Positions 9,887 through 64,000 of a DNA stretch of 64,000 bases are shown here, one piece after another. This stretch comes from Candidatus Altimarinota bacterium (lineage in GTDB: Bacteria; Patescibacteriota; Gracilibacteria; BD1-5; UBA2023): positions 1-64,000 of the forward strand of contig JACMPW010000005.1 of the NCBI GenBank assembly GCA_014377305.1, in the 5' to 3' direction. The notes below the pieces were generated by a model, which was not told the DNA's origin, ran no database searches, and saw nothing but the letters and a program-made list of their open reading frames with translations. Position numbers and translations under genes: made by a program. Position 1 is the first letter of the stretch; the number at the start of each line of letters is the position of its first letter.

Positions 9887-12800
9887 ATGTTTACGTTCAA
9901 TAAAATTGGTATCAGAAATATACGAGTAATCTTTGATCCACGAGAATCTATGAGTAGCCCTATAGAACAAAATGAACCAAAACTTGCCAAAGATATTCGC
10001 CCTATCGAACTCGCTAACTTGACTGTAGAGGCAACAAATGCAGTTATAGAAACTAAGGTCAAAACTGCTAGTGTTGAAGATCGTAGACTATTATGAGAAT
10101 GGCTAAATAGTCAAAAACTAAGCCTCAGTGATAATCCTACACGATTGAATTATATAGCAAATATGAAAAATATACTTGATCGTGTTAATACAGCAAAGGG
10201 AGAACCTAGTATTATGGATGATGGGAGTACAACTAAACCCGTACATACAGTACTAGGAACTCCAGCAGCCCCAGATACTCTTGCCTCAGTGGCGGTAGTC
10301 TCTGCTAATCCTGCTGTAGCTGAGAAGCAAAATACAGATAATGCATCAGCTGTAGAGAGAGCACGAGTAGCAACTACTACCATCTTGAATACGAGCAATA
10401 ATGCTCAGGTAACTCTTGCTCAGTCTGCACCTCCAAATAGCAATCCGACTCTTGGTGCTGAGAAACCAGTAGAGATAGCAAAAGATCCTAAAATCCAAGC
10501 TCTCGTAGAGACCTACAATGAGCAGTATGTAATCAAAAGAAATCTCACAAAAGCACTCTCTCGAGCTATAACTAATAATGGTGGCTATGATGCTGTATAT
10601 GAGCGAGTGACTGGTGAAAAACCAACAGGTGCAAATGAAGATATAATAAAATTCCAGAAATCATTCAATACAAATATCTCATTTCTCAAACAATTCGGTG
10701 GGGGTGCCGCATGAGTAGATGCTCTTTTATCTGGAAAAACAGATGAATATATGAAGGAGGTTGTAAAAACAATAAAGAATAATGGTGGTAAGATGCCAGA
10801 TATTCAGTCAGTAGAATGAATATCTCCTCAAGTTCAGACTATTGCTGGTGCTGTTGCTACTGTCCTGGTTGCTGTAGGTACAAGCGGTATTGTCATAGTA
10901 TGACATGAGGCGGATCGTACTACGGCAGATACATTTATCCGTGAACTCCAAAAAGACACAGAAGGTGGCGTATGGAATAAGTTCACAAATGCTCTCGTAT
11001 GGATCAAAGAAGCAGCTATGGGACGCAAACTCAGTATTACCCTAGGAGCGAATGAGAAAGAAGGAAATGTAGAAAAATATTATGGAGATATTCGTAATTT
11101 TACAAAAGAAGTAATGGAGACTCCAGATCTCTCAAAATCAACAAATCCACAAGTGAAGGAGATGTATATGGCAGCAAAGGCATTTGCTACTAATGCTAAG
11201 ATAAATCCTACAACTGAACAATACCAAAAAGCACTCATACAATCATATATTCTCAATGAAGGATATGCTCGTCAGTGAGTTGACTGGAAGGCAAATATCG
11301 GCCTCCTATTCGTCGGTGCTGGTCGTGAAGAGATCAAAGCTAATTCACGTGATAATAAAGGTAATTCTCTCGACAATGATGCTGAGAAGGCTATCACAAA
11401 CAGAAAAATCGAATCTGCAGAACTCAAACAAGCATGAGTAACTATCGAAAAAAATAGCGAAGGGAAATGGGTACACTCTATACCAGCAGTTGCTGCATTC
11501 GCATGAGATACAGAGAATATATCTATAACAATACCAGGAAAAACAGAAACAAACGGTACCTATACTATTGTTACGGATACTGTACAGACACTACACTTCT
11601 CAGATAGTGGATCTGGCTATGTTGTATCATTCTCAGACGCAACCAATCAGCCTGAGTCTACTGCTACTACTGCTGCACCAACTGGAGATAGACCTACGCA
11701 ATCAGCGAATACAGTTACTAAATTTCGGGAAACCAATACTAAGAATGCACTCGATGATGCTATATATTTTGCTGGACATACTCTCGAATTCAAGGCATAT
11801 CTTGATGCTATGGCAGGTCAAGATGTAGTAGCAGCACGAGCCACTCTCGAGAGTATGCTAACAGGTAAATATAGAACAAGAGCAAGTATCCTTCTCAAAA
11901 ATCTCAATACCATCGATAATACATATACGTATGGATCCAATGCAAATCGTAGAGCAGAGAAGATAACAGAAAAAAATATAAATAGTATCCGAACAGAGGA
12001 AATAATCAATGCAGAAAACAAGCTTGCTCGAAAAGTTGGTATCACCCAAAAATGAACTGATGATGCTAGTTTCGATATGCAAAATAGTGAGGTGAAACAG
12101 GCGTCTAGTATTTATACTGGACAAGAAATGACACTTTCTGTTTTTGCTACACCGAGGGCAACAGTAAAATGACCACAGTGAGCACTCCATCGTATCGATA
12201 CCATGGATGGATCATTTGCTATCAACTCCAAGACTGTGGAGATCACAGGAGAATACAAAAATCAGATCATCGATGCAACTGGATCACTCGTGAAAAACGA
12301 TAAAAAAGGAATTGCCTGACAAGTAGAAAAGCTTAATATATTCCTCAAAAATAATAAGCAACCAGAAACAGATATCACAAAATATACAAACTATCTCAAA
12401 TCAGGAAATATAGCAGATCTCGGAGTCCCTGGGCTGCAGCTCCAAGAATGAAAATGAACCAAGGTATTCGAGGCTCGTGCTCGCATAGCTGGTAATCTCT
12501 GTCTCAATAGAACACATGGTATCGTATTTCCACTTTTTGGGCTCCCTCCATCAGCTGGCAATCCACCAGTGAGACAATGAGTTGAGTCTGTAGCGACACT
12601 CGACTATACTACGCCAACAAAAGAAAATGATGTAACTACCCGCAAGAGTGCACTAGGAGGCAGTCCAGTTGCAGCATTAGTTAACCAGTTGACGAAAAAA
12701 CCAGGATCACCAAATCAACCAAATAATCCTACTCCTACTACGACTCCTCAAACAGGTCCAGCGGTTCCTAATAATCCTACTCCTACTACGACTCCTCAAA

Positions 12801-12943
12801 CAGGTCCAGCGGTTCCTAATAATCTTACTCACACTCCTGGAGGACCAGTTATTACGCCATCACAACCAGCTATGCCTGTTACAGCCCCAGTAACTACTTA
12901 TATAGCTCCACCACCTAGATCACTTTGACCAGTGGTTAAATAA
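9887..12943 (+). CDS. Large protein of unknown function with Pro/Thr-rich C-terminus (1018 aa)
   Basis: A single frame of 1019 codons, broken by many TGA glycines, ends at TAA 12941-12943. No signal peptide is evident. One hydrophobic stretch (about residues 317-340, AVATVLVAVGTSGIVIV) may be a membrane segment. The remainder is polar and Lys/Glu/Asn-rich, apparently helical. The last 90 residues are Pro/Thr/Gln-rich with two identical 16-residue repeats. I recognise no domain. Size and composition fit a lineage-specific envelope or secreted protein. Being expressed from its own promoter and followed 21 bases later by a lipoprotein gene suggests an envelope role. Confidence 0.75.
12722..12817 (+). 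repeat. Two 48-bp tandem direct repeats
   Basis: Two essentially identical 48-base units (12722-12769, 12770-12817), each encoding NNPTPTTTPQTGPAVP near the C-terminus of the preceding CDS. The unit is in phase with codons, as expected of a variable-length linker. Confidence 0.9.
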
Positions 12944-48565: not shown

Positions 48566-49111
48566 ATGACTCCATTTTTATCTGTATCCACTGACTCTGA
48601 TAGGACGGAGTTTTTGATAGATACTCAACTTTTCTCTCCAGTGATTGCGATGAAGGCAGCATATGTCCTCCTTGATAGGGCATATTTCTTCTTTTTCACT
48701 CGTCCGGATTGACTCATGGTACAGGTGAGTCCCAAGGTATGACAAGATTGGAGTGCTGAGAGATTTACTCTTGAGTATAGTGATGAGCTCCTTGCTTATG
48801 CCCTGAGAGCTCGGGTAGAGCTAGAGAACAAAGAAGTTCGAGAGACTATCGTCAGACGAGCTTTGGGTTCGTATGCTGATCTTCCTAATTTTACATCTGT
48901 TGATCCTATTGCAAGTAGTCCACAGATCGACTTCGATAAAGATATTGATGAGATACTCAGAGAAATCGAAAATGATCCTGAACTCAAGATCGATGAAGCA
49001 GAAATCAATCGTATTCTCGCTGAGATTGATTCAGAGACTCAGGCACTCAAAAAACCAAAACTCGATCCTAATAAACTCAAAGATGTCAAAAAAAACTTTC
49101 AACATAAGTAA
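48566..49111 (+). CDS. hxsD: His-Xaa-Ser system protein HxsD
   Basis: 181 aa. The N-terminal 95 residues match HxsD in pattern: FLIDTQLFSPVIAMKAAYVL, then DRAYFFFF, VQVSPK and the FTLEYSDELLAYALRARVE region. HxsD is a conserved small partner of the radical SAM enzymes in His-Xaa-Ser peptide systems and may bind the precursor leader. The extra C-terminal 85 residues (Glu/Asp/Lys-rich, helical) look lineage-specific. It is first in the locus, and its end overlaps the next gene by 29 bases. Confidence 0.78.
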
Positions 49112-49283
49112 TATATTGTATCCAGAAACAATGATCCATGATGCTATACATGAGTTCCACTGATATGTTATTATTTATGCTGATGGATTGATTACTATTG
49201 ATGATGAGTATCCACAAGTAGTATTTGATGAACTGATGAATTATATCCTTTCTATTTTTTCAGAAAATACTGTATGAGCCTAG
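49083..49283 (+). CDS. Small protein between hxsD and hxsB (66 aa)
   Basis: 66 aa. It overlaps hxsD by 29 bases and hxsB by 10, with two internal TGA glycines, so it is invisible under standard stops. The composition (ISNILYPETMIHDAIHEFHG, YVIIYADGLITIDDEY) suggests an alpha/beta fold, reminiscent of short accessory proteins that assist radical SAM maturases. No family recognised. Double overlap argues for tight translational coupling and a real gene. Confidence 0.62.
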
Positions 49284-50728
49284 ATATTGATGTCATAGAG
49301 TCCATGAATATGGACCGAGTAGCTCCATTTTACTTCTCTCGAAAAAAAGATGAGCAGTATTTGATTACGAATGATTTTGGATATTATTCATATCTTTCTC
49401 CTTGAGAGTTTGATGATTTTTGTTCGAGCAAACTTACTTGAGACAAATTCATAGAACTTGATGAAAAACTCTTCATAAAAAATGATACCTATACAGATCG
49501 AGCGATCACTGCATATAACAAAAAAAATAGCTTTCTCGCATATGGACCTACGCTCCACATGATTATTACAACTCTTCGCTGTAATCATAAATGTCAGTAC
49601 TGCCATGCTGCTGTAGCTCCTATGACTGCGAAGAATCTAGATATGACACGAGAAACAGCAGAGAAGGTAGTAGATACGATATTCTATACATCAGCCCCAT
49701 CACTCACGATCGAGTTCCAGTGATGAGAGTCGCTCGTCAACTATGACATAGTTCAGTTCATTGTTGAGTATGCTAGCATGAAAGCTCAAGCTCTCCAGAA
49801 AAATCTCACATTTGCATTGGTATCCAACCTTTCACTCATGGATGAGGATAAACTCAAGTGGCTTCTCGATCATGGCGTTGATATATGTACGTCTCTCGAT
49901 GGTGATAAAAAGACTCATAATTGGCAGCGTACCTATAAGGAGGGGGATAGCCATGAGAAAGTAGTTCATTGGATCAATCGTATCACGGCTGAACAAGAAC
50001 TCAGGTGAAAAAAAGGATATAAAATCGGTGCCCTTGCTACCTGGACGAAACCAGGTCTTGCAAATTATCGTAATATTGTGGATTCGTACATAGAACTCTG
50101 ACTCACTACTATAGGACTCAGATGGCTCAATCCCTATGGATTTGCTGCTGCAGAGCGAGATACTCTCGAGTATACACTCGATGAATATTTTGAGTTCTAC
50201 AAGAACTCCATGGATTATATTCTTGAAAAAAATAAAGAATGAATTTTTCTCAAGGAGATGATGTCTATGGTCTATCTCGGTAAAATTCTCAATAATACGG
50301 ATAGTGGATTTATGGATGTGAGATCACCATCTGGTATTGCTATCGGAGGAGTTGCCTACAACTATGATGGTGGAGTGTATGCTAGTGATGAGTCGCGTAT
50401 GCTCGGTCGTATGGGGATTCATGATTTTCTCATGACACCACTCCTCGCAACAGGCGAAGAGACCTATAGAGCCATGGCCAATAGTGAGGTTACCAAGATA
50501 TCAGTCCAATCATCTACACTTGACGGACTCCCATGATATGTAGACCATGTATACAAGCCATATCTTGGAGTTGACTTGATCTATGCATTCACACAGCATG
50601 GTAATGTTTTTTCCAACTTTGCAAAGGATGATAAAACTCGTATTCAGATAAGTATGCTCGATTATTTATTTGATAAACTCAGAGATCCTGAGAATGAGAA
50701 AATTTTTAGATCTTGGATCAGGAGATAA
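49274..50728 (+). CDS. hxsB: His-Xaa-Ser system radical SAM maturase HxsB
   Basis: 484 aa. The [4Fe-4S] motif CNHKCQYC gives Cys103, Cys107 and Cys110, preceded by LHMIITTLR as in HxsB. TIEFQGGESL is the GGE SAM-binding motif, with both Gly as tandem TGA at 49723-49728. YNYDGGVYASDESRML near residue 358 is characteristic of HxsB C-termini. It should modify the HXS precursor by radical chemistry. TGA also occurs at 50008 and elsewhere. Confidence 0.85.
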
Positions 50729-50730
50729 AG

Positions 50731-50757
50731 TTGCAATAAGGAAGAAAAAGATATAAT
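50731..50757 (+). promoter_or_regulatory. Internal promoter for the precursor gene
   Basis: TTGCAA (50731-50736), 15-base spacer, consensus TATAAT (50752-50757), 23 bases before the precursor ATG. Precursor peptides are often transcribed at higher level than their enzymes. Confidence 0.6.
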
Positions 50758-50780: not shown

Positions 50781-51206
50781 ATGTCTGAACAACAGAAAAA
50801 AATCATCCCAAAATTCAAGAAAAAACTCCAGTGATTCCTCTCAGATGAGAGTGGTAAAATCACCAAGGAAGATGTCCTCAAAATGGGTATGATGGCTATG
50901 GGTATTGCTATGATGGTAGGACAAGTCGATGCTGCTGCTACCCATGCTAGCAATGGTATTGCGGATGGTATAGGCGGGAGTACACATCAGAACTATAGTA
51001 TCGACTATAATTCTGATGCAGTGAGTTGTCCACCAGTGAGTCAGATTGTAAATGGTCATGTCAATGTAGTTCCATCGAGTTGTACTATTAACTGAGGTGG
51101 CATGACCAATGTCGCTGGCCACGGATCACACGGGAGCCACGGATCACACGGGAGCCACGGATCACACGGGAGCCACGGATCACACGGGAGCCACGCTTCT
51201 TACTAA
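50781..51206 (+). CDS. hxsA: His-Xaa-Ser repeat precursor protein (HxsA-like)
   Basis: 141 aa. A basic amphipathic N-terminus (KKIIPKFKKKLQ) and the leader-like segment FLSDESGKITKEDVLKMG are followed by a Met/Ala-rich hydrophobic stretch (GMMAMGIAMMVG) ending in AAATH. A middle domain with two Cys (AVSCPP, PSSCTI) leads to a C-terminal tail of eight HGS triplets and a final HASY. Two TGA glycines (residue 18 and the one before GGMTN) hide it under standard stops. This is the probable substrate of the surrounding radical SAM enzymes, with His or Ser side chains as candidate modification sites. Cleavage and export route unknown. Confidence 0.88.
51120..51200 (+). repeat. HXS-coding tandem repeat (4 x 18 bp)
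   Basis: Four exact 18-base units CACGGATCACACGGGAGC encode eight HGS triplets (51120-51191), followed by HAS (51192-51200). The alternation of GGA-TCA and GGG-AGC codons within each unit shows the duplication unit is two triplets. Confidence 0.97.
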
Positions 51207-51211
51207 TATTT

Positions 51212-51844
51212 ATGAAATCAACTCTTCACTACATCACTATCGGTATTGTTATCCTGACTCTTTCGAGTTGTTCCTGGTGAGCAAAAGAAAGTGTTGCTAT
51301 CCCTACTGGCACTGGTAGTAATAATACTCAATCGTTATCTAAGCTTACGTGATCTGTACTTCCTCCAGAAGCTCAGTTTAAGGATATTGTTACCGCATTA
51401 GAAGGGACTAAAAACTATAATGAATTCTCCAAAGCATATTCTCTTTCTTCGTCAAAAATAGATGAATGGATATCTCAATGAAGTGGATCATATATATTCG
51501 ATCATAACATAGTAGATAAACTTGTGCCATATATATACATATGTAGGCTCACGCTCTCAGGGGAGGATTCTGTAGTTCGATCATCATTTACGAGATATAG
51601 TACTATTATTCCTCCTATCACAGATAGGGATCCGACAAATAATGTGAATATTATTGAGCAATTTATGAGTTCAAAAATCTCTCTCTCAAAACTCTATGAT
51701 ATATTACTATCTCCTCAGGTCATATTACCACAATATTATATAGATCTCCTCTCCAAGAGGAGACTCGCCTATTGAAAAATATCGGCAGATGATTGCAGTG
51801 AACTCATATTCAAGTATGAAGATACATTTTTTAGTGAAAAATAA
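51212..51844 (+). CDS. Lipoprotein of the HXS locus (210 aa)
   Basis: 210 aa. Lipoprotein signal peptide (YITIGIVILTLSSC) with lipobox LSSC giving Cys20. The mature domain is polar and helical (AQFKDIVTALEGTKNYNEF, IIEQFMSSKISLSKLYDILL). Five bases separate it from the precursor stop. A surface lipoprotein here could receive, display or export the modified peptide, but no family is recognised. Confidence 0.78.
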
Positions 51845-51847
51845 GAA

Positions 51848-53311
51848 ATGAGAAATCACATCAAGTATAGAACGATATTTGCGAATAAGAAAGATCAATG
51901 AGTCGTACGACATATGCCCGATCAGTTGATCATAAGAGTATGAAAGTGATGCAATTTTCGTTGTATTTTTTGTAATGTTGCCGAAAATGAGACAGTACTG
52001 AGCCTCAAATCATCTCTCCAAGAGATACTGGCGATGACTTTTTATAAAATAAAACATACTAAATTTCTTTCTGACCAAATTAATGTAACTATTTCTGGTG
52101 GTGAACCTAGTATTTTCAAAAAAGAGACTCTATTCATACTCAAATACTTCAAGATTTTCTTTGAGAAACGAGGTATTCATACAAGCTTTGATATGCAATC
52201 AAATGCCTCGAGTATTGATAGGGAATTCGCAGATGCAATATATCGTCTCTGAGTATGACAGGTACTCGTCTCATCTCATGCACATGATCCAGAGATATTT
52301 GAGTCTATAATTGGTGTCAAATATGTAACTATGTGACCACGTTTTGAATCAGGCGTTCAACACCTTCTTGATGCTGGTATCGAGGTTACTTTTAATATTG
52401 TACTCAATCGTCTCAACCATTCGCATTATCTAGAACATATTGTCTATCTTCATCATAAATATCCTCAAGTAGCACTCTACAATATATGATTCGTTCAGCC
52501 TCATGGTATGGCACAAGAGAATTTCAAAAAATTATTCTCTCAATATAGTGATGTTGCTCCTGTATATAATCGTGTTATTTCGTATCTCAAGTATCACTGA
52601 AAATACGTACACTCTCACCTCGTAGGATTGCCCCTGTGCTATATGGATGACTGGTCGAGTAGTATGGAATATTCGTATAATCAGGCCCTACTCAAAGCAG
52701 ATCCGAATGATCACACTCTTATCCAATCTATCAATGATAGTAATAAGATACATCCATCATCTTGTGATGGATGTCGAGCAAAGCGAGTCTGTAGCGGTAC
52801 ATGGAAAGAATATAGCAAGTTACAAAAACTCAAGCCATACATATATCCAACCTATAATTCTTCTACTGTTTTTGCTGATGACATTGAGTCTATCGAAAAA
52901 GACTATGATTCTGGTGATCGAGTTTTTTTCTTGGAGTGACGAGTATATACGCAAGGAACCCTGACTGACAAGATTGCATCTATCAAAAATCTTGGATACT
53001 CTTGGATAAGTATTGTTTTAGATAAGTGGAGTGATGGATGTGATCCCTCGTACTTTGCAGGAACTAATATACAGTATATAGCTATTGCTTCGATAGCGAC
53101 TCTATCTACGATAGATGACGTAGCAAAGTATAATAAGCAAGTACCATTTCAGTTTCGTATTCAGTTGGATATACTGATCAAAAATCCAGAAAATTGGACA
53201 ATAAAAGATATCCTTGATATGCCAAAGAGTTCGGATATCCTTGTTCGACTCCCAAAAACCTGGAGATCAGAAAAACAACTTCACAAACCATATATTTATT
53301 TTTCTCTCTAG
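51848..53311 (+). CDS. Radical SAM peptide-maturase-like enzyme with SPASM-type cysteines (487 aa)
   Basis: 487 aa, 3 bases after the lipoprotein. Cluster motif Cys35, Cys39, Cys42 (CNFRCIFC) and GGEPS in the SAM-binding strand (VTISGGEPSIF). A SPASM/twitch-like cysteine set CDGCRAKRVCSG lies near residue 310. A further C-terminal domain of about 150 residues (from SIEKDYDSGDRV) is unlike standard maturases. TGA glycines include the one in the CNFRC-preceding GKGC. Its closest canonical role would be the second HXS radical SAM enzyme (HxsC), but I cannot make that assignment by eye. Confidence 0.85.
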
Positions 53312-53315
53312 TCCT

Positions 53316-54017
53316 ATGGTACAAGTCGCTATACTATGATTTTGAAGACAATGAAAAAAACATGCTCATTTTTGGCGACATATTTGAGTAGAGCCAACTA
53401 TTTTTACACGAACAGCATGAGAAAATAGTTCTTCTATAGAAGAATTTTCCCCGGAAAAATATACTATAGTGGTATGTGCAATATTTCCTCTTGATGAACA
53501 AACAAAAGTGCTCTCAAAGATTCTGATATCCGGATATCTCTGATACCTGATCATAGAGAAACCAATAACCTTTTCGAAGAAACTCCTTGAAACACTCGTG
53601 GGTAGAGAGAGAACCATCTTTTTCATAGATGAAGCATATATGGATATACATATGCGTATTGGGAAAATCTATGAAATAGAAACAGTATCATATGTACCTG
53701 ATGATGCACTCTCTATTCAGGAACATGCTATATGATATACTCTCAGGTCACCTGTATGAGTTCTCTCATATAGAGATATCATTAATTCTCATATTTTATC
53801 AATAGATCAGCGTTATCTACTGGCAACAGATGTTGGCACTATTGAGTCTGTGAATGGGGCTGTATACCTCGATGGACGTCTATTCTCATTTTCTTTTGAT
53901 GCTGTATATACGTATATGTTATACCACATAGCCGACGATGAGATGATGGGCAAGATACGGTCTAACTATTTGAATTTTCGTTTACAATCACCATATTGAG
54001 CCCTCTCCTATGAGTAA
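53316..54017 (+). CDS. Gfo/Idh/MocA-like NAD(P)-binding protein (short)
   Basis: 233 aa. The N-terminal Rossmann motif VAILGFGRQGKKHAHFW (first three glycines mostly TGA) and YLIIEKPITFS, the EKP motif of Gfo/Idh/MocA oxidoreductases, are clear. The C-terminal half is much shorter than the usual alpha/beta domain, and the total is about 100 residues below the family norm. It may be a redox enzyme acting on the peptide or a cofactor, or a degenerate scaffold. It overlaps the next gene by 8 bases. Confidence 0.7.
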
Positions 54018-54717
54018 TAATTCCTTACATAATAGAAAAATTTTTCAAAATAATACTGATATTTCCCGATACTGTATCGGCGTTTTTGGAGAAAAATTTG
54101 AAATACGTTATTGTAATTTTGGTTTTGTAGTCATACCAATATCAGGTCTATTTGTATACAAATATTATCTCTGATCAAAAGATGATCCTTTATTATTCTG
54201 AAATAGAGAGGCAAAAAATTATCTATTCTTTCACCAAAATTGAGTATTGATACCAATATACGAAGTTCTATGAGATATATGTATCTGAAACCAAGTATTC
54301 ATGCGAGCAAAAATCCAAAATATTCGAATGACAAGTAAAAAATTTGTATCTTTTTGTGATTTTGACATCCAACAACTTGCAATGATTATTACTCAGATAC
54401 ATACTATCTATCCTGGCTATATCCATGGTAATATTCATCCATCCAATTTTTTCCTCAATACAAGTGGAAAAATCGGAGTTTTTGATCTTATTACCTATGC
54501 GATATGACCTCGTGAGAGAGATATATCACGTATATTTATGCATGCTAGATATGATGTAGATTTTCTGAAACATTTCCTAGTATTTTACAAGTTTGATATT
54601 TCACTAAAAAAAGTATACTTGATCGCACTTATAGAACTCCGAGAATTGATGAAAATGTGATATGCAACAGATTTTGAAATAGAGATAAAAAAATTGATTA
54701 CACTGATTCAGTCATAG
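54010..54717 (+). CDS. Kinase-fold protein (APH/choline-kinase-like), catalytic Asp replaced
   Basis: 235 aa. The catalytic-loop region reads HGNIHPSN (His139 to Asn146), where aminoglycoside/choline kinases have HGDxHxxN, so the catalytic Asp is Asn141. The metal-binding region GVFDLITYAIGPRERDISRI keeps Asp159 and the family GPREXD pattern. A short N-lobe lacks an obvious P-loop. It is either an inactive pseudokinase with a binding role or an unusual phosphotransferase. It overlaps its neighbour upstream by 8 bases and is 3 bases from the next gene. Confidence 0.7.
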
Positions 54718-54720
54718 TAT

Positions 54721-55455
54721 ATGCAAATAGACCTCTATCTCGGATTTACATCTTGTCGATGACACTGTCTGTTTTGTAAACAGGGAGAGGATCTTATCTA
54801 TTTCCCTCGACCGACGTATATGTCAGATCCAACACAGTATCAATTTTTCTATTTTGATACATCAGATGATCTCTATAGTTGGATTGCTACAACGACATAT
54901 GAGAATATAGATACCATCAACATCTCAGGAAATGATCCGATAAGCTGGATTGAATTATCTCTATTTTTGGATATACTCACAGAGAAATATCCGTCAGTAT
55001 ATCGAACACTCCGTATATCGAATACACGAGAACTCGATCAGAAGATATGTACACGGATAGATGCAATAGAACTCTCTCTCTATTGACAGACTCCTGAGGT
55101 GCAGCTGGCGATGACAGGAACGGACGAATCTTGGGACATATTCCACTCCAATCTCGCAGAGATCCGAGCATCTCATAGAGTAGACGTACAATTGCAAACT
55201 ATATTTCTCTATACAAATATAGCATATGCCTCGAGTATTCTGGAGTATATGCTCTCCCTCTCAGGGGGACAACCTATCAAAATAGTATATCCTCATTTTA
55301 TGCCACGCAATATGGTGCATGAGCTCATTCCAAAGAGGGAATTCCTCCAGTTGCTCATACGACAGGTTCCCAAAAATATACTACAAAAATGTATCATGAA
55401 TAATATCAAACCGCAGATATCTCTCACCTCACTGTTTTATGATACACAAGAATAA
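54721..55455 (+). CDS. Minimal radical SAM protein (244 aa)
   Basis: 244 aa. Cluster motif Cys12, Cys16, Cys19 (CRGHCLFC; the Gly is TGA) begins almost at the N-terminus, followed by a partial TIM barrel with INISGNDPISWIEL in place of GGE. No additional Cys cluster is visible, so it lacks a SPASM domain. In multi-enzyme RiPP loci such small radical SAM proteins sometimes act on specific residues or as partners. The next gene overlaps by 17 bases. Confidence 0.82.
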
Positions 55456-56146
55456 TTTTATTTTCGACATGAGAGATGCTTTTTGAATTTGATATAGTTT
55501 TTCAAAGAATTGCTATGTAGAGTACACTCTTTCTTATGAAGATAAAAATATATTCACATATTTCAAAACCTACCTATCATCACAAAATATACTCTCTCCT
55601 ATACGTGAAGTATATACTGGTTCCGATGATATCTATGGTATGCATTCGATACTCGACTTTTTCTTATCTTCATATCCTATATTGACTGACTCAACCATAG
55701 ATCTACTGCGTACGAACATAGATTCATGAAAAATTTTGGAAATCCATTATTCGACTGATCCTATCGATAGTGATATCACACTCTATATATACTCAAAAGA
55801 TATTGTATTTCTTAAGCTTCTCAATTCTGACTATGATAGTGATAATTTCTTCGAGGCTTGATATAAGGATATTCATATGTTTTGTTCAAAATTGAAAATA
55901 AACTCAATTACGAGAGCTATCAATACTTCGATTATACTTACATCACATAATTTCGAAAATAAAGATGCATATTTGCAGCTAAAACAATCTCCATTTTTTC
56001 CCAAAGAATTTGATTCAAACTCTATTATTCAGGATGGAAAATTCATTACATATGAAATATCATATTCTATGAATGCACAAATAGTAGAAAACTTTACATT
56101 ATTTTATTTTCCTCGAGCAAAAAATGCAAAATCCTCTCCTCTCTAA
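55439..56146 (+). CDS. Protein of unknown function in HXS locus (235 aa)
   Basis: 235 aa, overlapping its neighbours by 17 and 23 bases. The sequence is Asp/Ser/Tyr/Phe-rich with hydrophobic helices (MHSILDFFLSSYPIL) and no recognisable motif, signal or cysteine cluster. TGA glycines include FGIGYSF. Position and overlaps tie it to the maturation cluster; a peptide-binding or partner role is only inferred. Confidence 0.62.
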
Positions 56147-57446
56147 AGAGATAACAACTCGTGAAAATCGTATTTGGGTACGTATCATCGCTGCATGTAA
56201 TGTGAAGTGTATTTTTTGTCTGGATGCTGATGCACAGAATGGTACACTCATCGATGATACCAAAATCCGAGATCAAATCCGAGATGGATACAAACCTGGT
56301 ATGACCAATCGTATAATCATATCTGGAGGTGAGGCGAGTATCCATCCAAAATTTGCCGATTATGTCAGATATGCCAAATCAGTATGATATGATCGAGTAC
56401 AGACAGTAACCAACGGGAATATGTTTGCCCGCCGAGAATTTTGTAATAAGCTTTTTGATGCATGACTTGATGAGGTCACCTTTTCTATCCATGGACATAC
56501 AGCAAAGCTCCATGACTATCTCACAGCGGCACCTGGATCGTATGAACGAGCTATACGATGACTGATCAATGTTCGCAAATTTTTCCCTACCAAAATCGTC
56601 AATATCGATATTGTTGTCAACAAGATGAATGTGGAGTATCTTCCGCAGATGGTGAAGTTTTTTATGCGACTTGGAGTATATGAGTTTGATATTCTTCAGA
56701 TTATTCCATTTGGTAGGGGATTTAGCCAATACAAAGATCAGCTTTTTTATCGTATCGAAGACTATCTCTGACCACTTCATGATACATGGAAGCTCTCTAA
56801 AATTCCAGGTGTATATATGTGGACGAATAGATTCCAAGTAGAAGCATTCGAGTGATATGAAGACCTCATACAGGATCCTCGTAAGATCAAATCAGAAGTT
56901 ATGTGAGAAGCTCTAGAGGAATTCTCTACATTCATCGAATCACATGGTATCACAAAACCTCATTGTTATTGAGAGGCCTGTGACGTATGTTTTCTCAAAC
57001 AATATTGTCATGACTATATCGATCATCAGAGTCATCATCTCCCTGCATGAGATATTCAGATATATAGTGGGAAAGATGACCCTATCACATTCAGATATCT
57101 TATCCTCAGATGAGAAGAGTTCCCGAGTCAAGTATATGAAAAATATGGAAATACAGGAGAGGAATTCGTATCTCGAATACAAGATATCCATCTCAATTCC
57201 AACCAAGAGATAGTCAATATTCCTCGTTGTATACGAGAGAAAAATAATTCTGGACTCTATGAATGGGATAACGATATGAGTCAAGAAAAAAATGTAGCAC
57301 AATATACAAAAAACTATATACTATGACTCTACCGTAAAAAATCCACTCGTTGCAAATCTTGTAAATACAATGATAGCTGTGAGTGATTACATATCAATTT
57401 TATCAGATCATACTGATTTAATCTTCTCAAACCCTTTCTCAAATAA
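56124..57446 (+). CDS. Radical SAM/SPASM-type enzyme (440 aa)
   Basis: 440 aa. Cys25, Cys29, Cys32 (CNVKCIFC), IIISGGEASIHP and TFSIHG define the radical SAM barrel. Two further cysteine clusters follow: CYGEACDVCFLKQYC near residue 278 and RCKSCKYNDSCEG near 408, consistent with auxiliary Fe-S clusters. It starts 23 bases before the previous stop. It probably introduces a modification into the HXS peptide or a partner; specificity unknown. Confidence 0.87.
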
Positions 57447-57448
57447 AC

Positions 57449-58432
57449 ATGGCTAATATCGGTTACATCCAAGTCAATCGTCACTGTAATAACGCCTGTC
57501 ACTTTTGCTCGAATCCATCCAACGGTCAAAATATCTCTTATGAGAAAGGAGTAGAGATTATCGATGATTTCATAGTACGCAAGTATAGATGAGTCATATT
57601 CACTGGTGGTGAACCAACACTCTCTCCTGATCTCTCAAGATGGATAGCATATGCACGAGAGGCAGGTATAGAATCCCGTATCATATCCAATGGTATGATG
57701 TGTGCGAGTCTCCCCTATATGAAAAAACTTGCTGATGCTTGACTCGAGCTCGTACACTTCTCGGTATATTCGTATAATCCGAAGATTCATGATTTCCTCA
57801 CAGATACACCGGGATCATGGAAACGACTCATGCTCTCTATCGGTCATGCTCATAGTCTCTGAGTACGTGTACAAATCAATACAGCAATCAACCACTATAA
57901 TCAATCTCATCTTGATGTAACAGTGCAGTTTCTCACGAAACAATTCCCCAAGTTACAACATTTTGTCTGGAACAATCTCGATCCTCTCATGATGAGAAAG
58001 ACAGATACAGCCCTTTCGACTATTCCAGATTTTGCAGCTTTTGAGCTCCCACTCCGGCGAGCCATGCAATATCTTGAGTCCACTAATCGTACATTTCGTG
58101 TAGAGAGAGTTCCACTTTGTTATATGCGATGATTTGAGCATTTTTCTACGGAAACTCGCAAAATCGTAAAAGATGAAGAGAGAATTGTACACTTTCTCGA
58201 CGAACGTGAGATCGTCGAACAAAAATCTGAATGGTTCGTACATGATAAATGAGAGGCTTGCAAATCCTGTGATCTCAACCCTATCTGTGCTGGTATTTGG
58301 CTTGCAAAACCTGCAACGATTTTTGGCACAGATCATCCTGGTTATTATGACTTTGTAGAGTTCCGTACACAGAAACTCACACTCGATGAACGTCAAAAAA
58401 TAATAGATACTATTAAAAAAGAAACAGACTAG
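57449..58432 (+). CDS. Radical SAM/SPASM-type enzyme (327 aa)
   Basis: 327 aa, 2 bases after the previous stop. Cys13, Cys17, Cys20 (CNNACHFC), VIFTGGEPTLSP, VHFSVYSYNPKIHD and the C-terminal cluster CKSCDLNPICAG match PqqE/AnSME-like peptide-modifying radical SAM enzymes with a short SPASM domain. The Gly before VIFT is TGA. Similar in layout to the 440-aa enzyme upstream, suggesting duplication within the locus. Confidence 0.88.
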
Positions 58433-58435
58433 CAT

Positions 58436-59335
58436 ATGCCAAATATTATTATCAATAATACCTGTAATCAACGATGTTCTTATTGTTTTGCTGAGGATAG
58501 TATGACCTACGAGGCTCTTCCGGTGAAGAATCAAAAATATTCTACTTTTATTAGTATTCTTCATTTTCTCAGACAAAATGGATATGAAGATGTACGATTT
58601 CTTGGGGGTGAACCACTCTTGCATCCAGAACTTCAGAAGTTTATTCTTTTATCCCGTAAGGGTGGATTTCAGACTCGTATGTTTTCTAATTTGAATTTTC
58701 CAGAAATATATGTATCTGAAAAATTCAAAAATCCTCTTTCTCTGCCACACACGATCAATGCCAATATCAATAATCGTGACTTTTACTCTGATATAGAGTA
58801 TGAACGTGTGATCAATAATATTCTTTTCTTTAAACAATGAGGTACGATCATGACTATCGGATATAATATATATGATCTTTCCAAATCATTTGATGATATC
58901 ATCCAAGTTGCTCGCACTACCTGAATCAAACATATAAATCTCAAGGTCACCAATACCATACTCGGAGACCCACTGATTGTAGATACAGGATCTCGACTCT
59001 ATGGAGAATATATATTTGATATTATTCGCTCATATGGTGATGAGTTTGAATTTGTTTTTTCGTGCTGACTTTCACGTGATATATTCGTGTCTACTGAGAT
59101 CGAATACATGAATAGCATCGGTATATATCCGAGATATGGGTGTGACGGATTCAGTGGCAAATTCGATATTGATATCGATGGGAGTATCTACAAGTGTTTT
59201 CCGACTCGATCACTGTATCTGAAAAAACGTCTTTCCATTTACTCATTTACAGATGAGCAGCAACTTTTTTCGATAGTTTGAATCGAGAAGTCTTCAGGGA
59301 TATGTCGAGCACATACACTGAGCAAGACAACTTAG
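58436..59335 (+). CDS. Radical SAM enzyme (299 aa)
   Basis: 299 aa, 3 bases after the previous stop. Cys10, Cys14, Cys17 (CNQRCSYC) followed by VRFLGGEPLLHPEL. The C-terminal third has YGCDGFSGKFDIDIDGSIYKC, the typical SPASM DxxGxIYxC turn, with a later Cys in GICRAH. Likely another peptide maturase. Canonical glycines near the end use TGA. Confidence 0.87.
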
Positions 59336-59355: not shown

Positions 59356-60414
59356 ATGTGAAAATATCTCTCTACTCTCGGATATAATCCTAATATACTC
59401 CTGGAAAAATATCGAAAATTGTTTGTATCCAAGACTCGAAAAATCTGGAATATGCATATATGATGAGATATTCCTTGTGATGAATTCTTGCTCCATCCAG
59501 ATATCCATAGTCGACTCCTTGCGAGCATGAGGTGAGAACTATGAGTTGGTATACAATACTATAGAGAATTAGAAAAAGAGTACCACCAATTTCGAGAAGA
59601 ATGATTTTTTTATGATGCAAGTGAAAAAATAACAGGAACAAATATAGCTCTCACTCTCGATTTCAAGAATCCTGATATCAATAAACATGCCCACCCAGAG
59701 CATCAAAAACAGTGAATTAGTATATGATTCTGAGAACAAACCCCACAAGACTGGAGAAATCTTTTCAAAAAATCTTTTGATATACTACACTCGGTCTCAC
59801 CATGATGTATGAGTGAAATTGACTCAATGATAAAAAAAATTATACCATTTTGAGTGAGTGTATGAGTACATAATTCCGGCTCATATTCTGAGGCTATATG
59901 ACATCTACTGATGAGTTATCCTACGGGTATGTCTCATCCCGAACTCGCTCTTTTAGAAGCTATTCTCCATGAGTACAATCATAATAAGATCAATCTGATT
60001 ATGCAGACAGAAGTACTCATACTCAATGATAGTCGTGAAATCTACTATTCTCCATATCGTCCAGATGCTCGACATATTCATGGTATCTATCTCTGACTCC
60101 ATGCTATTGCATGAGTCTATTGGGTTATTTGGAACGCTCATAGTACTGGTATATACTCTCTCTCTCCTCAGTGGCAAGAGAAGGCTGTCCTCTACGTACT
60201 CAAAAATTGACTCTCTCTCCAAATCCTCGATCGATATGCAAAACTCACCCCACTTGGACAAGAAATACTAGAAGAAATGAGGGCTGTCCATAGGGAGTGT
60301 CTTCTCTACATCAAGCAATCACATATCTCCTACGATATCATAGAACATGCTCAGCAAAAACTCAAATCTCATCATCAGGACGTAGTCGAGAGCCAGCCCA
60401 AACTTGTTTCCTAA
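59356..60414 (+). CDS. HExxH-motif peptide modification protein (alpha-ketoglutarate HExxH beta-hydroxylase-like)
   Basis: 352 aa. HEYNH at residues 205-209 within LLEAILHEYNHNKINLIMQT, followed by YYSPYRPDARHIHGIYLGLH, matches the HExxH family of RiPP-associated proteins, in which the His/Glu/His motif binds iron for alpha-ketoglutarate-dependent beta-hydroxylation of peptide residues. The N-terminal 180 residues are family-specific and poorly conserved. At least 15 glycines are TGA, including the second codon. It closes the HXS locus and could hydroxylate the precursor. Confidence 0.78.
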
Positions 60415-61352
60415 AATGTCGTACGAATCCAATTTATTATATTTATATCGAGGTTGTAGGTAGTTATAAAAGCTATAAATATAACGATAGAATAGGGAAT
60501 AGTTTTGAAATATTCTCATCATCATATTGTAGTCATATGATCGTATATCCCATATATAGTAGTGCTAATATAACGAATGACTATGTATAATAGGATATAT
60601 ATCCATAGAGATGATATATATCTGAGGAGTTCACTATACAAATTAGATATTCCATTATCCTGAATATATGATCCAAAATATATAATGATCCAAAATATCG
60701 GTATGATATTATACTGCCATCTCGTGATCAAATAGTTGCTCCATGGACGAATCATGTATACTACAAGAAATATAAGAAAATACATATTTGCGTTCATATC
60801 TATACTATAGCTGAGCATGACTCATATGTGAGGTATAAGTTGTGAAAATATAAATCCTACTATACCAAAGTCCAGAATATATGCGAGTATATAGAGATAT
60901 ATCTCATTTTTTGGAATTTTTGGTGATAGCTGATTCATAACTACACCAATGCTGAGAGATCAACGAGACCTATATATACATCCAAGAATGATGACGATCC
61001 AAAAAAATAGGCATATCAGTGTCAATACTGCTATATTACCCACAAAGTCTGATATAGGGTGACTTCCCATAAATAATATGAGTATGGCTGTATATTTGAT
61101 ATCTCCTGATCATAGGAATGGACTACTTTGATATAGAAATATTCCTCATATAAGTAAGATGATGGAAACGAATATATTCGATATACTCATAGATATATAG
61201 CTAGGAGCAGATATCCATATCCAGAATGGTAAAATCCCAAAAAGTACCATCAAAGAGAGGTTGAGTATTTTTCTATGATAAATATCAGTTACGAGTATCC
61301 ATAGATTTACTCCTATAAATATGGATATTATAACAAGTTGCAAAGAGTCCAC
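60411..61352 (-). CDS. Prepilin-type aspartic peptidase (A24 family) with extended C-terminus
   Basis: 313 aa, eight or more membrane helices. The catalytic aspartates are in VTDIYHRKI (first Asp) and GSGDIKYTAIL (GxGD, second Asp), the A24 signature. It lacks the N-terminal Cys-rich methylase domain of PilD, so it resembles TadV/CpaA or FlaK-like peptidases. The C-terminal 150 residues add hydrophobic helices. It converges with the HExxH gene and overlaps its stop by a few bases. It could process type IV pilin-like precursors elsewhere in the genome. Confidence 0.82.
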
Positions 61353-61453
61353 AAAATCAAGTATTATACAATATAAAATATATTTTTCTAATCAAAAATC
61401 TGTTTTTTAAATAGAGAATGTGCTACGCTGAAAGCAGTATATAAATATCTTGT

Positions 61454-64000
61454 ATGAAAACAAAAATAAAAATTGGACTCTTGTTTCTCATATCCATCGT
61501 ATCTCTGCTGGAATTTGCTCAGCTCGATGCCGCTTGGTATGGTGATCATGGATATCATAATTCTTGGGCAGGAGGATGGTGTGATCAAGACGCTCAGGTA
61601 GATGCTACTTGACCATCTGCAGAGGTCTGGGGGCCAGCGTATGGAGATAGTCCATGGCCGTATGCTCTCTATTATATACAGGGTCGTATCATAGGTGACT
61701 ATGGTGGAGGATGGATGAACTGTCAATACTGGGATGCGACGGCCCCTACCTTGTCCTCTATTACATATGTGCCTCCCGCTACCAGTGGATGGACCAACAA
61801 CCCAAACTTTCCAGTGACACTCGTAGGGAGTGATTATGGGGGATCGGGCATACAGAGATACTATCTCTATTATAGATACCAAGATAACCCAGGATCAACT
61901 ACTCCGTGAGCATGGAGTAGTTGGATATGGTGTGGGAATGTGGCGAGCTCATTTGCATTTACCTGTGATGGGAGTAGGGGTACTGCCAATAGAGCATATC
62001 AGCTCTCTGCCGGTATGGAGGATGGTGCCTGAAACTATATTGCTGCAAATCTAGATGGATGAATTATCTATGTGGATACTACCATACCAGATCCAAATAT
62101 ATTTACCAATACAACGGCGACGAGTCTCCTGGCGACAACATCGCAAGCATTCACATTTACCTACAATGATGGAGGGGCACCAGTATCGATTCGATCTGTA
62201 TTTGAGAATTTTGCGAATCCTGCTACTACAGTATCTGTATTTGCACCATCAGCATTTGCCTATTCACATACATCATCTCAGAATATCAATACTGTAGATG
62301 GATCAGATCGTATCGTAGATGGAGGAACGGCAAGAGCGTATACCTATACTGTGACCCAGATTTGTGATCAGGCAGGGAATTGTTGGAATGGAACAAAAAA
62401 CTATACCTACAACATATACGCAAATCCGAACTATGCCCCTCAAAATACTCAAGATATCTCATCACTTTCGAGTGCAGTATCTGATGGAGTACCACGGAAT
62501 TTTGTACATACGATAAAAGATGGATACGGTAATGCAATCATCCCAGCTGCAGGCATCTCCCGATTAGTCACTATAGATCTCTCTGCTATCTCGAATCAGA
62601 TGTATATCAATCAACATACGAGATCTGCAACTGATGGTACGTCTGTATTTATCACTGTACCGAACAATACCCCTGATCAAGCATTGAGCTTCACTCCTAC
62701 ACAGGTGTTTGCAAACCCTACTACATCGACAACTGGAGCATATCCAGTGAGTATCCGAGTATATACACCAACTGCGAATAGCTATAGTCCTACTGACCCA
62801 CTTTCTGATCCATCTGCTGTATTCGGATTTGGAACCAATCTGATCGTATCTGATACACTCATCGGCCCAGCAAAAACATTTTCTCAAGTACTTTCGGGTC
62901 CAGTATTTAGACCACTCTATACGTCTGCTATCACTGGAGATCTCAGGACTGGTTGATTCATCGAGGGAACTGAGCAAATGAGCATCATCACTATCACTCA
63001 GGCAGCATCATCACTCACAACACCACCTTCTTTTGCTCTCGATCTCGAGTTCTCAGGATCCAATATACCCAATTTTGATCTTGCATGAGGTACCATAGCC
63101 TATGCACCTATTACCAATATTCTCTCTCCACTCATCGGTATCAGTACGCCGAGTAGTGTCACATTTCTCTCACAACTTCGCCAAAAACCTGATACGACTA
63201 TCGCTACACTCTCCAATCTCCAACTCTCGACTCATATCACCTATACTCTCGATGGCAAAAATATCCTCTACAATAGTGATATCATCGGTAAAACACGAGG
63301 ATATTGGGGTACAGCTCAGTCTCTCGCAAATCAGGTAGGTATCAAGATCATAGGCCCGATAGCGTCCAACACTATACGAGCCATCGTCGATGGACAATTC
63401 GCAGATGGGACGAGTATATTCGGATGACTCTCTCGAGTAGACATCCGTAACAAGATGAAACAATCGACCGCTCTCGCTACGCGTAATATGATAGTCGCCC
63501 CAGTATCATCTATTGTCGATAGTCTCACCATCCCAAATAGCTCATCACCACTTGATGCAAAATGAGCCAAAATCGATCTCTCACCAGTGAGCTCTATCTA
63601 CAAGGTAGAGAGGACTGGAGGCAATGTGACCCTCGCACTCACATCTGGTATCTCGGGCAAACGCACTCTCGTAGTGAGATGAGCCAATCTCTATATAACC
63701 CGTGATATGTACTATATGACTGCTGATGATATACTCTGAGTAGTAGTACAAAAAGATGAAGCCGGAAATGGGGGAAATCTCTATATCGATCCGAGTATCA
63801 CCAATATAGTGGGAACGTATATCCTCGATGGGAGTGTACTCAGCTATGATGGTACTACAGAGATCGGAGTAGGGAATATAACAACTCTCAAAAATCAGCT
63901 CTATATCTATGGATCTATCGTGAGTGAAAATACTATAGGTGGATCTCGTATGAATCCACTGAGATGTCCATCCCTCTTGGATGTAGCTTGTACCGATGTT
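61454..64000 (+). CDS. Large exported surface protein (N-terminal part, truncated by window)
   Basis: 849 codons, open to the window end. Signal peptide MKTKIKIGLLFLISIVSLLE with cleavage near LDAAW. The early region has Trp/Gly/Tyr-rich sequence (WYGDHGYHNSWAGGW), followed by Ig-like modules (APTLSSITYVPPATSG, SQAFTFTYNDGGAPVSI) and then a long beta-rich C-terminal module with KRTLVVRGANLYITRDM, NGGNLYIDPSI and LYIYGSIVSENTIGGSR ending in a Cys pair. That module is shared with the protein at 35412-37706. TGA glycines occur throughout. Start at 61454 chosen for the signal peptide. Confidence 0.85.

Follow-up and report, generated by a model that had tools for sequence, protein, structure and literature searches.

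An HxsA-like precursor with H-x-[S/N] sites in a radical-SAM gene cluster of Gracilibacteria

PMC9062424 credits Haft and Basu with proposing the His-Xaa-Ser (Hxs) radical-SAM system, which is described by profiles TIGR03976-03979 together with NF038309 (HxsA3) and NF038313 (HxsA4). The six annotated systems used for reference, which come from Pseudomonadota, Cyanobacteriota and Bacteroidota, have operons that run hxsA (or a candidate for it), hxsD where annotated, hxsB, hxsC, with one short H-x-S tail. No report of an Hxs product was found in the literature searched, nor any Gracilibacteria RiPP paper relevant here. Triceptide enzymes join an aromatic residue at position i to the beta-carbon of residue i+2, and the bonds described are His-Ala (HaaB), His-Arg (YhhB), Phe-Ser (MscB) and Phe-Asn (XncB) (PMC11002830); the HExxH enzyme ChlH hydroxylates a cyclophane peptide at His and Asp (PMC12636437). 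In the TVG poly-cyclopropylglycine system (TvgA/TvgB/TvgC), a repeat precursor is modified many times by one radical-SAM enzyme and an iron/aKG-dependent enzyme (PMC11002830).

The locus described here lies in a 64,000-nucleotide stretch of DNA, referred to as the window, from a 918 kb genome that is 93% complete and whose relatives are named Candidatus Gracilibacteria. Its precursor and neighbouring genes almost certainly belong to the Hxs system, with which they share an HxsB above the family cut-off, an HxsD-like neighbour, HxsC-like radical-SAM proteins, C-terminal H-x-S repeats and an aromatic end. The differences are that the gene order is D-B-A rather than A-D-B-C, that the precursor falls under the curated cut-offs, and that there are extra mid-region H-x-[S/N] sites, three HxsC-like paralogues and additional radical-SAM and HExxH genes; the window HxsB also has no auxiliary-cluster cysteines. 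The triceptide systems (HaaB, YhhB, MscB, XncB, ChlB/ChlH) are similar in having an aromatic residue at i (His in HaaB and YhhB), Ser or Asn at i+2 in MscB and XncB, and an HExxH hydroxylase partner comparable to ChlH. However, His-Ser and His-Asn cross-links are absent from those in the review PMC11002830, and SPASM cysteines are missing from the window HxsB. The TVG system resembles this one in its multiply modified repeat precursor, but its repeat is TVGG and its chemistry forms a cyclopropane on Val; the radical-SAM enzyme TigE counts among the folds near that of HxsB.

The precursor gene (50781-51206, forward strand) is open for 141 aa under table 25, in which TGA encodes Gly, and is broken under table 11. 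Its in-frame TGA codons specify G18 and G105, and the adjacent hxsB contains eight more. Support for the TGA=Gly code comes from the named relatives and from reading frames that are open and conserved; no tRNA for TGA=Gly was found in the window, which holds only two tRNAs. The translation, MSEQQKKIIPKFKKKLQGFLSDESGKITKEDVLKMGMMAMGIAMMVGQVDAAATHASNGIADGIGGSTHQNYSIDYNSDAVSCPPVSQIVNGHVNVVPSSCTINGGGMTNVAGHGSHGSHGSHGSHGSHGSHGSHGSHASY, is HxsA3/HxsA4-like by reading frame, family profiles and alignment, and runs from a leader through a hydrophobic stretch resembling a signal peptide and a middle with two cysteines (C83 and C101) to a (HGS)8-HAS-Y tail.

The leader and hydrophobic stretch occupy 50781-50933 (forward strand); the leader segment FLSDESGKITKEDVLKMG corresponds to aa 19-36 and is kept across 29 precursors, and the hydrophobic stretch spans aa 35-47. 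Signal-peptide cleavage is likely at VDA/A, after residue 51, as judged from the sequence, and a [small]-x-Ala motif stands behind the hydrophobic 13-mer in 27 of the 29 precursors. We rejected a prepilin-type leader: the precursor does have an FLxDE motif, but the Gly at -1 of the G|FxxxE pattern is replaced by N or S in relatives, and hydrophobicity sets in about 14 residues too late instead of at +1. The tail (51120-51203, forward strand) is encoded by four exact copies of the 18-bp unit CACGGATCACACGGGAGC, for which TRF reports a period of 18, 4.3 copies and a 100% match at 51118-51195, and this array specifies 8 of the 12 H-x-[S/N] sites in the precursor. Three sites lie in the middle region on the same strand: H55-A-S57 (50943-50951) and H69-Q-N71 (50985-50993), both read from the sequence, and H93-V-N95 within a conserved VNGH motif (51048-51065), whose N91, G92 and H93 are invariant in alignments A1 and A3. 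Tandem repeats are also present elsewhere in the window, at 135-702 (a 288-bp unit, two copies, 76% matches) and 12722-12830 (a 48-bp unit, 2.3 copies), probably in surface proteins.

Alignment with relatives shows P10, K14, F19, E23-S24-G25 and N91-G92-H93 to be invariant, and because both the leader and the VNGH motif align with the relatives' precursors, the gene is a real one. The initial annotation had described a tail of eight HGS plus HAS built from four exact 18-bp units, behind a leader-like segment, a hydrophobic stretch and a two-Cys region, and all of these elements are borne out by the table 25 reading. Its definition of the middle as a Cys-bearing domain fares less well: the two cysteines are there but are not invariant among relatives, and the region appears better defined by its three H-x-[S/N] sites and the VNGH motif. 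The same annotation gave the gene its own TATAAT promoter. The hexamer exists at 50752-50757, with a 15 nt spacer, yet it is absent from the list of the promoter scan, promoter-like sites in the region occur at chance frequency (50 found, against 56 ± 6.5 in shuffles), and no conserved -10 box was found upstream of hxsA in relatives. Since the precursor gene starts only 52 nt after hxsB and ends 5 nt ahead of the next gene, an operon is more likely than a promoter of its own.

Against the family profiles, the precursor scores 53.2 bits to HxsA3 (NF038309; cut-off 65), with the match in the leader, and 46.3 bits to HxsA4 (NF038313; cut-off 55), with the match in the tail; by these scores it appears related to both, yet it falls outside both by the curated cut-off rule. 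The score to HxsA (TIGR03979) is 13.8 bits, with a cut-off of 121.65, and a search of the window's own genome with that profile gave no match. Among 19 precursors tested, 18 match HxsA3 and 14 match HxsA4. Of 59 genomes, most of them drawn from the order, 33 have an HxsB above cut-off. A precursor profile gives matches in 44 of 77 genomes within the order, against 2 of 286 genomes in a sample of the phylum, namely the window's own and one of another class. The Hxs precursor is therefore no general trait of the phylum. The gene order hxsD-hxsB-hxsA is nearly invariant across the Gracilibacterial loci, and the other genes vary strongly. At one locus (L046:15331-16848, reverse strand), HxsB has no adjoining precursor and sits beside ATP synthase genes; the precursor of that genome is on another contig (L133). 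In G331, a genome from a different class of the phylum, a protein with a 527-aa frame (L088:43-1626, reverse strand) has the same kind of leader and long HSQ/HSS/CHxS repeats near radical-SAM genes, and may be a further variant with Gln at the +2 place.

The cluster around the precursor, all on the forward strand and nearly gapless downstream of it, encodes six proteins of the radical-SAM type along with a single HExxH hydroxylase. The 181 aa HxsD-like protein (48566-49111) scores 45.9 bits against TIGR03976 (cut-off 50), with E=5e-12 over 88 of 90 positions, and all 23 of its relatives in alignment A2 match that profile. We considered and rejected HxsD as a RiPP recognition element: its AlphaFold2 model (pTM 0.49, N-terminal domain well predicted) is beta-beta-alpha-beta-beta-alpha and not winged-helix PqqD-like, and the 50 PDB matches listed for it, all weak and Rpb11/Pcc1-like, include no such element. 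The HxsB maturase (49274-50728; 484 aa, cluster motif CNHKCQYC) reaches 458 bits to TIGR03978, above the cut-off of 370. Downstream of the precursor are a putative lipoprotein (51212-51844; 210 aa) without a family match, whose LSSC lipobox was read from the sequence, and then an HxsC-like radical-SAM protein (51848-53311; CNFRCIFC) with TIGR03977 HxsC as its best NCBIfam match at 70.8 bits. These are followed by a weakly matching Gfo/Idh-like Rossmann protein (53316-54017; PF01408, E=0.028), with homologues in six other loci, a weakly matching phosphotransferase/kinase-like protein (54010-54717; PF01636, E=1.9e-4, under cut-off; longest ORF from 53938), a divergent radical-SAM-like protein recognised by its CRGHCLFC motif (54721-55455; PF04055, E=0.011), and a protein without a Pfam match whose start was picked by eye (55439-56146). 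Next come an HxsC/HxsC4-like protein (56124-57446; CNVKCIFC; NF038332, 136 bits, cut-off 500), another HxsC-like protein (57449-58432; CNNACHFC; TIGR03977, 83 bits) and a radical-SAM protein (58436-59335; CNQRCSYC) whose PF04055 score of 34.5 bits is above cut-off. The three HxsC-like proteins carry extra Cys and score 71-83 bits to TIGR03977, far under the cut-off of 267.9, and are thus best classed by profile as HxsC-like and not HxsC proper.

The last enzyme gene of this series (59356-60414) encodes an aKG-HExxH-type peptide beta-hydroxylase with HEYNH at residues 205-209 (TIGR04267, 62.4 bits, cut-off 40), which is present in a single copy in the genome; its likeness to ChlH is weak (E=0.021), and by eye no tie was found between this gene and any one precursor feature. 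It tends to adjoin a divergent gene that in relatives is like type IV prepilin peptidase (PF01478; window 59356-64000, L025, L027, L032 and L043). A large secreted protein is often encoded near it, of 931 aa in the window's genome (L084:1455-4250), and the HExxH, prepilin-peptidase-like and secreted-protein genes may constitute a second functional unit.

The placement of histidines in these precursors follows a strict pattern. His residues were counted after the leader and before the tail in 29 precursors, with each middle region shuffled in 2000 rounds. In the first set, 125 of 131 mid-region His have Ser (73) or Asn (52) at +2, against 33 ± 5 in the shuffles (maximum 50). The fraction of Ser plus Asn around His is 0.95 at +2, and each of the remaining offsets between -5 and +5 gives 0.10-0.38; Tyr (0.22) and Phe (0.17) have no such preference at +2, and other residues are likewise without a rule. 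A held-out set of 18 precursors from later-fetched loci gave 89 of 101 His, against 24 ± 4 in shuffles (maximum 39); the first set suggested the rule and this second one served to test it, but it includes relatives of the first, and the two are thus not fully independent. All 12 His of the window precursor conform. Because the rule holds through the middle regions too, the unit is the wider H-x-[S/N], of which the HGS repeat strings together one form, and this pattern makes it likely that modification takes place at H-x-[S/N]; plain metal binding would not need a strict Ser or Asn at +2. The HGS unit of the initial annotation needs widening, since H-x-S and H-x-N occur throughout the middle and some relatives have a GSGSGS tail instead. 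Its broader proposal of many equivalent sites for modification survives in that a modified multi-site precursor is supported by the enzyme neighbours and by tail types that vary with the enzymes, although HGS is not the sole unit.

Four types of precursor can be told apart, with HGS tails (0 to 27 copies), with GS tails, with GGWC ends, or with a mixture of features, the longest tail having 27 HGS units plus HAS units (L132 / L074). Across 45 loci, a GS tail occurs with one divergent radical-SAM family at 6 of 6 loci and at none of the 39 without that family; two of the six (L125 and L130) were fetched after the link was noticed, and the count pattern was widened to take in L125, where a short GS stretch lies in a second precursor beside the divergent enzyme. 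GGWC ends occur with a two-domain radical-SAM protein in 4 of 4 cases against 0 of 41, and later loci add no new positives. HGS tails of at least three copies go with HxsC-like enzymes (23/25 against 1/7, p=2e-4, in loci with at least 5 kb downstream), for which the 40-bit threshold for calling an enzyme HxsC-like was picked after looking, other thresholds giving p of 0.002 to 0.01. The GSGSGS-type tails (L025, L035/L135, L042, L048, L125 and L130) are seen only alongside the divergent family, of about 700 aa, and the GGWC ends (L032, L034, L041 and L048) only with the two-domain protein, which has two Pfam radical-SAM matches where tested. At L036 and L049, the GS-associated radical-SAM gene is directly behind hxsB, and no precursor was found there.

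These correlations could reflect shared ancestry of whole gene clusters and not enzyme-substrate matching. On the HxsB tree there are only four to five independent changes per trait, and the sign tests give 0.06-0.125 per trait, none below 0.05 alone; the couplings were chosen after viewing the data, and loci are cut by contig ends. However, every trait is found in several genera, and the independent pairs run in the expected direction in 5 of 5 cases for HGS, 4 of 4 for GS and 4 of 4 for GGWC, or 13 of 13 over the three traits, and we consider shared ancestry an improbable explanation.

In a member of the same genus, G001 (L048), the precursor has GSGSGSGSGSGGGWC in place of HGS, and HxsD and HxsB are kept; in the 19.9 kb examined there is no HxsC-like or HExxH gene, and both of the other radical-SAM families are present. 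Loss of the repeat in close relatives that keep the enzymes had been put forward in the initial annotation as evidence against a modified tail. G001 has lost HGS and retained HxsD and HxsB, but the HxsC-like and HExxH enzymes are absent from the examined region, and we therefore read the pattern as enzyme-substrate matching and not as a refutation of the modified-tail reading. Another reading to be weighed is that the His-rich HGS tail stays unmodified and serves in metal binding or surface display, with the enzymes acting on the leader-proximal middle (VNGH) only. Both G001 and G041 (L042) are without HGS tails yet have HxsB, HxsD and the VNGH motif, and the HGS copy number spans 0 to 27, as would suit such a tail; nonetheless, HGS tails accompany HxsC-like enzymes, canonical Hxs systems of other phyla retain an H-x-S tail with HxsB and HxsC, and the +2 rule is common to tail and middle, such that we give an unmodified tail little credence.

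The window HxsB has cysteines at 50, 103, 107, 110 and 205 only. Reference HxsB proteins have four C-terminal Cys (at window residues 422, 425, 431 and 455), and Gracilibacterial HxsB are without this set, except for one odd copy (L053). Many of them have a different set (353, 356, 371 and 434), and the window type has neither. HxsB proteins without auxiliary Cys form one clade of 17 rows with support of 100/100, comprising the window and 16 loci (including L024, L026, L027, L032, L033, L034, L038, L043, L047, L048 and L050), in which the auxiliary Cys are replaced by S, A, S and D and the CxxxCxxC motif is retained. The SPASM-type fold is still there in an AlphaFold2 model of the window HxsB (mean pLDDT 84, pTM 0.86), for which the nearest solved structures are those of CteB, sulfatase maturases, TigE, ChlB and SuiB; ChlB, to which HxsB is related by profile with E=1.6e-7, comes behind the top matches, a sactipeptide thioether enzyme (5why) and sulfatase maturases (4k36). 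Because the SPASM cysteines of typical peptide-crosslinking radical-SAM/SPASM enzymes are missing, the chemistry of the window HxsB may differ from theirs.

One such possibility is that the triplets are modified by radical-SAM enzymes with no cross-link, for example by epimerisation of Ser/Asn (giving D-residues with no mass change) or by conversion of Ser to formylglycine, the reaction of sulfatase maturases. The presence of sulfatase maturases and CteB among the nearest folds is consistent with this, as is the loss of every auxiliary-cluster Cys, which is unusual for cross-linking enzymes. But formylglycine needs Ser or Cys, whereas the +2 residue is Asn in 52 of 131 cases, and neither epimerisation nor formylglycine explains a strict His two residues before; we think this unlikely, albeit worth keeping in mind. 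The H-x-[S/N] sites have the triceptide pattern of aromatic-x-(residue with beta-CH), and His at i with Ser or Asn at i+2 fits the triceptide geometry exactly, which would account for the exchange of Ser with Asn and for the rarity of other residues. Conversion of the triplets to three-residue cyclophanes is thus a tentative reading by analogy, a little short of an even chance.

A scheme with iterative His-Ser/Asn cyclophanes, possible His hydroxylation and then export is the one we favour, because of the triceptide geometry, the likeness to ChlB and the weak one to ChlH, and the [small]-x-Ala motif in 27 of 29 precursors; we infer its steps with a certainty that falls from the first to the last. 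The leader would recruit HxsB (with HxsD) and the HxsC-like enzymes, which would act iteratively on the H-x-[S/N] triplets. Each site would then become a three-residue cyclophane by a C-C bond joining the ring of His (i) to the Ser/Asn beta-carbon (i+2), with a change of -2 Da per site. For recruitment and iterative cyclophane formation taken together, our confidence is tentative and not quite at the halfway mark. The HExxH enzyme would add beta-hydroxyls (+16 Da), probably on His, and the hydrophobic segment would act as a signal peptide, with a rigid His-rich chain released or displayed outside the cell, presumably that of an episymbiont, and perhaps binding metal or making contact with the host there. 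HExxH enzymes require O2 and radical-SAM enzymes are O2-sensitive, which counts against this joint scheme.

The Hxs precursor family and system were already known; what is new here is the site rule, the coupling between tail and enzyme, and the HxsB clade without auxiliary Cys. The name Hxs was given years ago purely on the basis of sequence, and the H-x-[S/N] rule supplies an exact list of sites together with a mass-shift prediction. The coupling of tail motifs to radical-SAM families offers natural enzyme-substrate pairs, and the SPASM-Cys-free clade asks if auxiliary clusters are needed for Hxs chemistry. In addition, this reduced genome of 918 kb has five of its nine Pfam-detected radical-SAM domains in a single operon-like cluster. 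It is possible, though doubtful, that Gracilibacteria use a modular peptide-modification code, in which a leader read by HxsD/HxsB would be joined to interchangeable cores (H-x-S/N, GS and GGWC), each with its own radical-SAM enzyme, and in which the triplets would become His-Ser and His-Asn cyclophanes through an HxsB stripped of its auxiliary iron-sulfur ligands. If such a code is true, His-Ser/His-Asn would be a cross-link pair outside those in the review PMC11002830.
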